Positions 1-3,949 of a stretch of 64,000 bases of DNA are shown one piece after another. This stretch comes from Armatimonadia bacterium (GTDB lineage: Bacteria; Armatimonadota; Zipacnadia; Zipacnadales; JABUFB01): the NCBI GenBank assembly GCA_039679385.1, contig JBDKVB010000143.1, forward strand, positions 1 to 64,000, in the 5' to 3' direction. Numbering within the stretch: position 1 is the first letter of the stretch; every line of letters starts with the position of its first letter. Below the pieces are notes generated by a model, which made no database searches, had not been told where the DNA came from, and saw only the letters and a program-made list of their open reading frames with translations. A program made the translations under genes and the position numbers.

Positions 1-150
1 CTGTTAGGGGCCTATTGAGGAGGAAGAGAGAAGAAAGTCGGGCTTTTTTGGTGGCGCCAGGAGGTGTTCTTGAGGGGGTTAGCGAATTACGATTCCAATT
101 GGCTCGTAGAGGCCCCTAGATGGGCCGCAGAGGGCCACTTTTGCGGCGCA
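1..150 (+). promoter_or_regulatory. probable CRISPR leader region
   Basis: AT-richer stretch directly before the first intact repeat, on the side opposite the degenerate repeats. crRNA orientation inferred from the ATTGAAAC repeat end also places the leader here. It contains a T-run near 45-50 and, at about 51-63, a segment (GGCGCCAGGAGG) resembling the right end of the dispersed element found inside and after the array. No promoter can be called with confidence, and any cas genes would lie left of the window. Confidence 0.5.
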
Positions 151-1140
151 GTCTCACCGCACTCGCGCGATACCGCGCATTGAAACCGTGTCGGTCTGCG
201 CCGTCCAGGTCTCCGTGCAGGGGTCTCACCGCACTCGCGCGATACCGCGCATTGAAACTGTGACCGGGCTTACCGTCCTTGCCGTTGAGCGTCTCACCGC
301 ACTCGCGCGATACCGCGCATTGAAACTGTGACCGGGCTTACCGTCCTTGCCGTTGAGCGTCTCACCGCACTCGCGCGATACCGCGCATTGAAACTAAGCC
401 ACCCCGGCGCCCAGGGAGCCGCTGTCCGTCTCACCGCACTCGCGCGATACCGCGCATTGAAACTGAATCGTTCCAGCGAGGAACCAGCCCCCAGGTCTCA
501 CCGCACTCGCGCGATACCGCGCATTGAAACAGACCTTAGCGGCCATACATACATCGTTCTGTCTCACCGCACTCGCGCGATACCGCGCAGGCAAAGGCAC
601 CTCACCCCCTGTGTCCCCCTCTCCACGCAGTGGCGAGGGGGAAAGGCAGCGGCGTACGGCAAAAGGGCAACGGCCCCAGGTGCGCCATCTGCGGAGGTGG
701 TGGTTGTTGCCGTTCGCCCCCTCGCCACTGGTGGAGAGGGGGAGTCGAGCGCAGCGAGACGGGGGTGAGGTACGCCAGGAGGAACCGCGCGAGACCGCGC
801 ATTGAAACCCTCCGGCCTTGGCCCCTTCCTTGGTTTGGTTGCACCGTAACCGCGCGAGACCGCGCATTGAAACACAAACAACTTCTATGAACTGAAACGA
901 GTCCATAGTCTCACCGCACTCGCGCGATACCGCGCATTGAAACGTTACCCTCGGTGTCGTTCCAGTTATAGAAAAAGTCTCACCGCACTCGCGCGATACC
1001 GCGCATTGAAACTCAGACATGATGGCTGACCTCCTTTCAGTTTGTCTCACCGCACTCGCGCGATACCGCGCATTGAAACGAACCGTAGGTGTTGCGGCAG
1101 CGGGCCGAACCGTTGCACCGTAGCCGCAAGAGACCGCACA
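151..1140 (+). CRISPR. CRISPR array, 36-nt repeats with ATTGAAAC 3' end
   Basis: Nine identical 36-nt repeats start at 151, 223, 291, 359, 428, 495, 908, 977 and 1044; they begin GTCTCACCGC and end CCGCGCATTGAAAC. Spacers are 30-36 nt. The ATTGAAAC end is the crRNA 5' handle typical of type I-A/I-B/III repeats, so transcription is read left to right. A full-length variant repeat (838-873, starting GTTGCACCGT), a variant 3' part (783-808) and two copies cut after position 29 (561-589 and 1112-1140) mark decay. The spacers at 259-290 and 327-358 are identical. A dispersed element occupies 590-782. No cas gene is present in the window, so subtype cannot be fixed. Confidence 0.96.
590..782. mobile_element. 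MITE-like palindromic element inside the CRISPR array
   Basis: Begins GGCAAAGGCACCTC immediately after a repeat cut at nucleotide 29 and ends near GTACGCCAGGAGG, after which a variant repeat resumes at its position 11. Inverted ends CCTCACCCCC (601-610) and GGGGGTGAGG (about 761-770) enclose CCCCCTCTCCACGC/GGCGAGGGGG-type inner palindromes. It has no transposase and no convincing ORF. Related sequences lie at 1141-1202, 2905-3035 and 62317-62386, so this is a dispersed non-coding repeat family; its mobility is inferred. Confidence 0.6.
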
Positions 1141-1202
1141 GGCAAAGGCACCTCTGCCCCAAGCAGTGGTGAGAGCCAGCGGAAGGTTGCGCCAAGAGGA
1201 GG
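1141..1202. repeat. decayed copy of the dispersed element after the array
   Basis: Starts with the same 14 nt (GGCAAAGGCACCTC) as the element at 590 and again follows a CRISPR repeat cut after its 29th nucleotide. It ends with GCGCCAAGAGGAGG, resembling the right end of the 590-782 copy. The interior is short and degenerate. Confidence 0.5.
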
Positions 1203-1222: not shown

Positions 1223-2209
1223 TTAGCCCTGCTTTGAGTGCTTGGGTTTCGCGGGTGCCGGCTTCTGGAACACGAGGATGTACTGGTGGTGGATGTTGGA
1301 GATGAAGGCGAAGGGGATCCCGAAGGGATAGAGGTTCTTGTTGTTCTGCGCGAGGATGGTTACGCCCTTGAGCTGCAGACCCAGGGCCTCCACGCGTGCA
1401 GCAAGGTCGGCATGGTACAGGTAGAAGCGCGGTCCGTGGCGGAAGTCAGACACGATGACCGCCATGTATCGTTTGGGCTTTAGCACGCGTCCACACTGCC
1501 CGAAGATGCGGGCCAGCTCGTCGAGAAACTGGTCGTAATCCTCGAGGTTGCCCAAGTCACCATCGCTGTCGCTGTACTGGGTCGGCAGACCGCGCGAGGT
1601 CCGTTCGGCATGGGCCTTGAGCCCGGCCTTCTTGGTGAGAATGCTCCAGTAGGGCGGACTGGTGACCACGAAGTCGAAGCTGTCGGCCTCCATCTCCTGA
1701 AGGCACGAGCGTGCATCGCCCTCCACCACAGACAACTCCAGCGAGGGCTGTGGTTGCCCCGAGACGGCCTCGGTCTGCAAACGCTCCCGAGCCACCTGCG
1801 CCCACTCGGGGGAAAGCTCGATGCCGACGCCCTTGCGTCCGGCAAGGGCACAGGCAAGGAGCGCCGAGCCACTCCCGACGAAGGGGTCGAGGACTCGCTC
1901 GCCCTGCTTGGTGAACAGCCGGATCAGGCGCTCGACGTCACGCTCGGAGAAGGTTGCCGGGTGGAGAGCCTTGAGTGCGCTTCGCGGCGGCGCCTGGCTG
2001 TAGACGAAGCTGTCGTCAAGCTGGCCGAGCAGGCGCTCGACCTCCTCCGGCGCATCCGTCTGCCGCAGCCACTGGACGAACTCCCCGGCGAGCTCCGAGA
2101 ATGCCTCGTTCCCATCGTCGCCACTCAGCCAGAAGCTCTTGGTCTCGATCAGCCACTGGCGGTTGGGCAGGTCGTTGAGTGCGTTTTTGGGGTGAACCGG
2201 GTCGTCCAA
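1223..2209 (-). CDS. site-specific DNA methyltransferase (N4-C/N6-A type), orphan
   Basis: 328 aa. A SAM-binding motif I, DPFVGSGS (residues 108-115), is followed by the catalytic TSPPYW motif (183-188), and a motif X-like HPATFS sits at 83-88. The order X-I-IV is gamma-like rather than the IV-then-I order of many beta-class enzymes. The TSPPYW form favours N4-cytosine methylation, which is an inference. The TTG start is supported by GGAGG eight bases upstream. No restriction endonuclease lies beside it, so it looks like an orphan enzyme placed next to the CRISPR array, possibly with a regulatory or protective role. Confidence 0.88.
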   Translation of the reverse strand: MDDPVHPKNALNDLPNRQWLIETKSFWLSGDDGNEAFSELAGEFVQWLRQTDAPEEVERLLGQLDDSFVYSQAPPRSALKALHPATFSERDVERLIRLFTKQGERVLDPFVGSGSALLACALAGRKGVGIELSPEWAQVARERLQTEAVSGQPQPSLELSVVEGDARSCLQEMEADSFDFVVTSPPYWSILTKKAGLKAHAERTSRGLPTQYSDSDGDLGNLEDYDQFLDELARIFGQCGRVLKPKRYMAVIVSDFRHGPRFYLYHADLAARVEALGLQLKGVTILAQNNKNLYPFGIPFAFISNIHHQYILVFQKPAPAKPKHSKQG

Positions 2210-2809: not shown

Positions 2810-3181
2810 GGTGAAGGTCCCCTTTCGGCGGAGTTCAGGCGACCGGCTTTTCCATCTTACCACAGGGCAGGCGCGGTCACAACGGGCCCTCAGCTCGCGG
2901 GCCCATTGACGGCACCTCACCCCCTGCCCCCTCTCCACGCAGTGACGAGGGGAGAAAGGCAAAGGCGAAGGGATGACGGCAAAGGCCCTCACCCCAGCCC
3001 TTCCCGAGGGGAGAGGGAGAGTGGACGGCGGTGAGAAGCGGGTAACCACTGGTGCGGGTGAAGTGGCGAAGGTCGCGACGCCGGGCGTGTGGAACCTGAG
3101 AGGAGTGTTTTCGTGTTCTGGTTTGGGAGAGCCTGCCCGTCGTCCGGGGCAGACGAGTAGCATGTCTTCGAGGTGACATCG
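2810..3181. other. 372-base intergenic region between divergent genes
   Basis: Holds the two outward gene starts and, in its middle, a dispersed palindromic repeat (listed separately). I see no ORF with coding character and no clear sigma70 promoter. Confidence 0.6.
2905..3035. repeat. dispersed palindromic repeat, two tandem units
   Basis: Contains GGCACCTCACCCCCTG followed by CCCCCTCTCCACGCAGTGA, then GGCAAAGGCCCTCACCCC with a second GAGGGG/CCCTC palindrome and a final GGCGGTGAG. Wording and palindrome design match the elements at 590-782 and 62317-62386. Non-coding. Confidence 0.6.
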
Positions 3182-3949
3182 ATGCAGAGACAGCGGATAT
3201 GGATCAGCTCGATCGTGGTTGTGCTTCTGGTCGTCGCGCTATACGCCTTCAACACCCTCTCGGAGCGGCCCAAACCGCCGGCCGATGTGAATCTGGAGGG
3301 GCGTCTCGCCAAGGAGACTCCCGAGGAACCGGCCGAGAACGCTGCGACGCCGGAATCCACCGTCGGCGAAGCCAGCAACGCTGCAACCTCCGAGGCGACG
3401 GCGGCCTCGGAGCAGTCAGGGGCGGACAAAGAGGTCGTCGCCCGCGCCAAGGGTTCGGTGGTCAAGCTGGTCACCGACAAGGGCACCATATACCTCGACC
3501 TGTACGATGACAAGACGCCGATCACCGTCGGCAACTTCCTGGACTTGGTCGGGAAGGGTTTCTATAATGGCCTCACCTTCCACCGGGTCATCGCGAACTT
3601 CATGATCCAGGGCGGAGACCCGAAGGGTACCGGCGAAGGCGGCCCGGGCTTCACGATTCCCGACGAGGCCGACAAGGGCCTCAAGCACGTCCGGGGCAGC
3701 CTCTCGATGGCGAAGACTGCGATGCCCAACACGGGCGGCAGTCAGTTCTTCATTTGCCACTCGCCGCAGGCGCACCTGGACGGCGTCCACACGGTCTTCG
3801 GCGAGTGCCTGCAGGGCATCGATGTCGTCGACTCCATCCAGATGGGCGACAAGATCAAGAGCGCAACGATCCTGAAGAAGTCGTCTGCGGCGGATGCGGA
3901 CATCGCGAAGGGCAAGGCGGCAAGGGTGCCGGAGACCAGTGGAGGATAG
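3182..3949 (+). CDS. membrane-anchored cyclophilin-type peptidyl-prolyl isomerase
   Basis: 255 aa. One transmembrane helix (about residues 7-24) is followed by a low-complexity Ala/Glu/Thr linker (30-90) and a cyclophilin domain (93-235). Family signatures are FHRVI (133-137, with the catalytic Arg135), QGGDPKGTG and GSQFFI (186-191). The topology predicts a periplasmic or extracytoplasmic foldase acting on proline bonds. The ATG at 3182 is preferred because GAGGTG sits at the right distance; the in-frame GTG at 3173 is itself part of that ribosome-binding site. Confidence 0.93.
   Translation: MQRQRIWISSIVVVLLVVALYAFNTLSERPKPPADVNLEGRLAKETPEEPAENAATPESTVGEASNAATSEATAASEQSGADKEVVARAKGSVVKLVTDKGTIYLDLYDDKTPITVGNFLDLVGKGFYNGLTFHRVIANFMIQGGDPKGTGEGGPGFTIPDEADKGLKHVRGSLSMAKTAMPNTGGSQFFICHSPQAHLDGVHTVFGECLQGIDVVDSIQMGDKIKSATILKKSSAADADIAKGKAARVPETSGG

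Follow-up and report, generated by a model that had tools for sequence, protein, structure and literature searches.

A REPIN-like element and a decayed REP-like remnant joined to a solitary CRISPR array at the same repeat position

Introduction

Reported insertions into CRISPR arrays include the MITE HqIRS37, which lies inside a residual CRISPR without cas genes in Haloquadratum walsbyi HBSQ001 (PMC3119063), and a pING1-like insertion in CRISPR_2 of Sulfolobus islandicus LAL14/1 (PMC3718332). REPINs are doublets of REP sequences that form hairpins (PMC3116915). GTAG- and CGTC-tagged REPs are characterized as short palindromes often paired in opposite orientation, and the CGTC class is described as being without a dedicated transposase (PMC3733652). 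A search of one literature collection for REP elements and RAYT together with CRISPR arrays returned no paper.

Here we analyzed a CRISPR array near the start of a 64-kb window (the whole stretch of DNA under analysis) from an Armatimonadia bacterium. The first-pass annotation of this DNA had described a dispersed element, beginning with GGCAAAGGCACCTC, that starts directly past position 29 of a repeat both at 590 (consensus repeat) and at 1141 (variant repeat), with the repeat after the first copy resuming at position 11. Coordinates and letters were confirmed at both joints, and so was the resumed repeat, a variant named R' at 783-808. Our results indicate that the observation is real and ordinary in kind, and that its mechanism is partly resolved.

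Results

A solitary CRISPR array with mosaic repeats

The array and its repeats comprise the following features.

151..1140, + strand: solitary CRISPR array with nine full consensus repeats, variant repeats and 11 spacers (two identical)
223..358, + strand: exact tandem duplication of one repeat-spacer unit (68 nt x 2; 223-290 = 291-358)
561..589, + strand: consensus repeat cut to positions 1-29; the element follows directly at 590
783..808, + strand: partial variant repeat R', resuming at its own position 11
838-873, + strand: full copy of variant repeat R' (GTTGCACCGTAACCGCGCGAGACCGCGCATTGAAAC)
1112..1140, + strand: degenerate terminal repeat R'', R'-like, positions 1-29 (GTTGCACCGTAGCCGCAAGAGACCGCACA)

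The repeat consensus (R) is GTCTCACCGCACTCGCGCGATACCGCGCATTGAAAC, 36 nt in length, and its nine full copies start at 151, 223, 291, 359, 428, 495, 908, 977 and 1044. Direct repeats of this length, separated by spacers of 29-36 nt of which one (TGTGACCGGGCTTACCGTCCTTGCCGTTGAGC, the spacer of the duplicated unit) is present twice, identify the region as a CRISPR array. Because the 36-nt repeat ends in ATTGAAAC, the leader is presumably at the low-coordinate end, following the usual orientation. From leader to trailer, six full R are followed by a seventh cut at position 29, the element at 590-776, six filler bases, a partial R', a full R', three full R, R'' cut at position 29, GGCAAAGGCACCTC and decayed sequence. 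R'' differs from the consensus at 9 of its 29 nt. The predicted repeat stem pairs positions 15-19 with 24-28, which places the joint one base past the stem. Position 29 is also close to the point at which a Cas6-type enzyme would cut to give an 8-nt handle.

The only Cas1 found in the genome belongs to a complete type I-C locus on another contig, C180 (Cas3, Cas5, Cas8c, Cas7, Cas4 and Cas1; C180 1-8748), which has its own array of different 32-nt repeats at the contig end. A search with one Pfam model detected no Cas6 in the genome, and the 36-nt repeat of the present array has no copy elsewhere in the genome. With no cas genes adjacent, an I-C locus on another contig using a different repeat and no Cas6 hit, the locus is termed a solitary array rather than a CRISPR-Cas locus. 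Downstream are genes for a DNA N6/N4 methyltransferase (1223-2209, minus strand) and a cyclophilin (3173-3949), and the methyltransferase was the only defence-family match among the flanking window genes tested. The methyltransferase gene directly abuts the array trailer.

Window positions 1-127 form an exact 127-nt overlap with positions 1-127 of contig C1 (reverse strand). This contig, which carries a gene for a beta-helix (pectate-lyase-like) protein, is probably the upstream neighbour, the assembly breaking just before the array. Three copies of the motif GGTTAGC(GAAT) lie in the roughly 230 nt that precede the array (window 50-83; C1 about 157-266, reverse strand), and GGTTAGC is present once just past the trailer end (1185-1228). 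CGCCARGAGG stands beside two of the motif sites, and the motif may be a short flanking repeat. The leader (50-83) and the trailer flank (1185-1228) agree at 15 of 16 positions in TCTTGAG[G/T]GGGTTAGC, a similarity that is suggestive but only borderline against gapped shuffles (p=0.05) and was set aside as evidence.

The same array was absent from the genomes searched of the genus (1 genome), the family (4) and the class (46), and had no match in viral contigs; there was thus no relative offering an empty site for comparison. The 23-nt repeat core had no match in a collection of 85k species genomes, and two spacer cores had no exact match in viral contigs.

The first copy belongs to a REP-type family scattered through the genome

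The first copy, 590-776, consists of two REP-type palindromes in inverted orientation plus a linker.

590..595, + strand: GGCAAA, linker-type sequence lying beyond the left end that family copies conserve
596..643, + strand: first REP-type palindrome, GGCACCTCACCCCC...CCCCCTCTCCACGCAGTGGCGAGGGGG (family profile hit at 589-666, E=2e-18; matches across the genome)
717..770, - strand: second REP-type palindrome, in inverted orientation (...GAGAGGGGGAGTCGAGCGCAGCGAGACGGGGGTGAGG) (minus-strand profile hit at 773-705, E=2e-8; fold)
771..776, + strand: TACGCC, right-end variant; TACGCC or TACGCG also follows two other family copies (L009, L024)
777..782, + strand: AGGAGG, filler that separates the element from the resumed repeat

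At the filler, CGCCAGGAGG recurs from the leader (55-64), and a near-identical form lies at 1190-1199. The profile was built from 38 other members of the family, whose unit is a REP-type palindrome, often clustered and joined by linkers of the GGCAAMGGC type. When 561-840 was folded as single-stranded DNA, the two palindromes paired together at -87.3 kcal/mol (z=-6.1; 0 of 200 shuffles as stable). BLAST of 575-800 against the 5.6-Mb genome gave 109 pieces, and the strict REP motif was found at 25 genome places, versus none for a reversed control. The element is therefore dispersed, as first annotated, within a family of tens of genome copies. To our knowledge, the sequence of this palindrome differs from published REP types.

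An inverted REP pair that forms a hairpin and a high genome copy number are features of a REPIN. No match to the Y1 transposase (PF01797) was found in the genome itself, while the same search recovered the enzyme in all seven relatives tested; lacking a detected RAYT (Y1), the element is named REPIN-like rather than REPIN. Near the Y1 genes of the relatives there were only scattered partial motifs and no full copy of the REP of this genome. A large REP-type family thus stands here beside no detectable Y1 transposase, and it may have lost its mobilizing enzyme. The strict motif was absent from the genomes of other species. At E<=1e-4, a looser DNA search detected weaker relatives of the REP family in three further genomes from the order but in none of the three genomes from the same taxonomic family, so the distribution of the REP family is patchy. 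The first-pass annotation had proposed looking for the element beside CRISPR arrays in related genomes, and a simple scan around the weaker relatives in those three genomes of the order found no array. As a separate observation, R' (AACCGCGCGAGACC; window 783-873) is closer than the consensus repeat to the right arm of some REP copies (AACCGCGAGACGG; L024, L053), possibly by chance.

The two joints share coordinate, strand and linker

Both joints have the same repeat coordinate, the same strand and the same linker, GGCAAA, off the element end, and the exact 14-mer GGCAAAGGCACCTC occurs at only two places in the window (590 and 1141). The left end conserved across 54 other copies reads GGCAC[C/G]TCAC, and GGCAAA stands before it in 3 of the 54. 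The joint at position 29 is thus 6 nt outside the usual left end of the family and is not a natural element end. Because repeat positions 26-29 read CGCA and many REP half-arms finish with the same letters (CACGCA), the breakpoint can be placed only to within a few bases. The concern raised at first pass, that the element ends might include repeat letters by chance, is to this extent justified.

At 590, repeat positions 30-36 were lost together with a spacer and with positions 1-10 of the repeat that follows. Repeat positions 11-29 flank the first copy on either side, in two variants that differ by 3 mismatches in 19, so any target-site duplication here would not be a fresh one. The spacers preceding the two joints also differ (531-560 versus 1080-1111).

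The sequence at 1141 is a decayed remnant

1141..1202, + strand: GGCAAAGGCACCTC plus a decayed REP-like remnant at the array trailer end (14-nt identity, 39-bit pairwise match)

The two copies are linked only when 1130-1160 is compared directly with 579-609 (39 bits, E=0.002). The core of the second shows a weak resemblance (GCAGTGGTGAG), and the profile from 38 other members does not report it even at E<=10. Since a chance 14-mer exactly at a repeat end is not credible, the sequence at 1141 is a real remnant; 'second copy' overstates its nature, and the two copies are not equivalent. A specific derivation from the first copy was considered and found unsupported: without the first 14 nt, other family members match the remnant as well as or better than the first copy does.

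Discussion

At about even probability, we consider that the two joints share one origin and that recombination within the array then reshuffled them. Under this explanation, an old solitary array would have been interrupted by a REPIN-like cluster of the scattered family, the junction of repeat, linker and REP forming once, probably by way of the short sequence CGCA, which repeat positions 26-29 share with the terminus of a REP arm. The repeats would then have recombined with one another, leaving one joint internal with an intact REPIN and the other at the trailer end, where it decayed. The repeat types alternate as R, R', R, R'' (order R7-E-R'2-R3-R''-E', with E and E' for the sequences at 590 and 1141), an order that spacer acquisition alone does not produce: copying of the leader-proximal repeat cannot yield such alternation without repeated back mutation, so recombination between repeats is favoured. 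The exact duplicate unit 223-290/291-358 is an independent sign of recombination within the array, and by our own estimate (about 1/68 for position, 1/2 for strand and 3/54 for linker) the coincidence of independent joints would be about 4e-4. Target-site choice in the repeat and recombination between two array copies each bearing the element had been offered at first pass as the alternatives. Of these, recombination is supported by the repeat order, the duplicated unit and the common linker; two element-bearing array copies are not, and target-site choice fares poorly because no common flanking target accompanies other copies and no Y1 transposase was found. A simple tandem duplication of the array end is excluded by the difference between the spacers preceding the two joints. 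As both spacers and repeat variants differ at the joints, the exchange either ran through a repeat, or the joints are independent microhomology joins. Against one origin, R and R'' differ at 9 of 29 positions at the joints, so that the crossover would have fallen within repeat positions 22-29 or have preceded the decay of R'', and the second copy has decayed too far for its descent from the first to be demonstrated.

Two independent joins, both held in register because the CRISPR repeat resembles a REP half, form a possible but clearly less probable alternative. REP clusters in this genome include halves ending CACGCA and followed directly by the linker (C)GGCAA[A/C]GGCAC; such halves would have recombined, or served in template switching, with a repeat ending in CGCA, which would put the linker just past position 29 on each occasion. 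In 4 of the 17 other copies that carry the linker, CGCA stands immediately before it, and the alignment to the cluster C70:50702-50751 takes in the repeat part as well (BLAST 54.5 bits). The score of repeat positions 1-29 against this cluster is 38; among the 830 window 29-mers that end in CGCA, a single one scores as high, and it is a REP. The resemblance is nevertheless modest and was noticed post hoc, the next unrelated 29-mer scoring 36, and R'' has no such resemblance (183 of 300 shuffles as good). CGCA microhomology may have set the joint register, and since microhomology or partial similarity can do so, a target-choosing enzyme is not required. Such an enzyme is what target-site-specific transposition would involve, with a RAYT-like Y1 or other REP transposase inserting REPINs past a short target supplied by repeat positions 26-29, beside the repeat hairpin. 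IS200/IS605-type enzymes use short targets, coordinate and orientation are identical twice, and the joint is one base past the stem ending at position 28. We regard this explanation as unlikely, given the negative Y1 result from a search that succeeded in every relative tested, and the loss of repeat parts and a spacer at 590, unlike a clean insertion. Isolated family members also share no upstream target and usually end at GGCAC rather than GGCAAAGGCAC, and no constant short target of the IS200/IS605 kind was present across the upstream flanks of the 54 other copies.

Slightly less likely still is that the joint at 1141 is simply the array trailer, a terminal repeat minus its last 7 nt beside pre-existing REP-derived DNA, with only 590 an insertion and the coordinates agreeing by luck and microhomology. 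Terminal CRISPR repeats are usually degenerate, as R'' is, and the family profile does not detect the 1141 copy, but a shared coordinate, strand and linker are improbable by chance, on the order estimated above. An assembly artefact, in which collapsed or chimeric repeats made one joint, is very improbable. The genome is a 184-contig draft and the window begins at an assembly break, its first 127 nt being identical to the terminus of contig C1, which would fit a branch close to the leader. At the overlap length of 127 nt, however, each joint stands in unique sequence, with differing spacers to either side, and both joints are several hundred bases from the end of a 100-kb contig.

Under the favoured explanation of one joint followed by recombination, the element would be a passive disruptor that destroyed one repeat-spacer-repeat unit and would put a long hairpin into any precursor crRNA. 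Arrays without working cas genes decay, and here decay is visible as the loss of a spacer unit, the intrusion of a palindromic element and a mosaic of repeat variants in which recombination between repeats is recorded. A preference of REP-type elements for capture at the foot of the CRISPR repeat hairpin (position 28/29, the point of 8-nt handle release expected for Cas6-type enzymes) is improbable in our assessment; if it existed, repeat structure would make arrays recurrent landing or recombination sites for REPINs. Should joints at one repeat position recur in many arrays, repeat hairpins would be implicated as breakage or capture sites, which a single locus cannot establish.

This kind of event is already known from the MITE in a cas-less array (PMC3119063), and the repeated coordinate, for which ordinary explanations exist, is the only unusual point. 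In terms of composition, the element resembles REPINs in its two inverted REP-type palindromes, long hairpin, many copies and clusters, but differs from them in that no RAYT was found in this genome and about 73 nt separate the palindromes (PMC3116915). It shares with GTAG- and CGTC-tagged REPs short palindromes and pairing in opposite orientation, whereas no GTAG tag was noticed beside the palindrome on inspection of the array region and the family copies (PMC3733652). Like the pING1-like insertion of S. islandicus, it is foreign DNA within an array; that insertion sits precisely between two complete repeats in the manner of a spacer, whereas the repeats are truncated here (PMC3718332). Like HqIRS37, it is a small non-autonomous repeat element in a residual array without cas genes, the H. 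walsbyi case being a cas-less strain; HqIRS37 lies in a spacer, whereas here a REP-type element is joined within repeats, twice at the same coordinate (PMC3119063).
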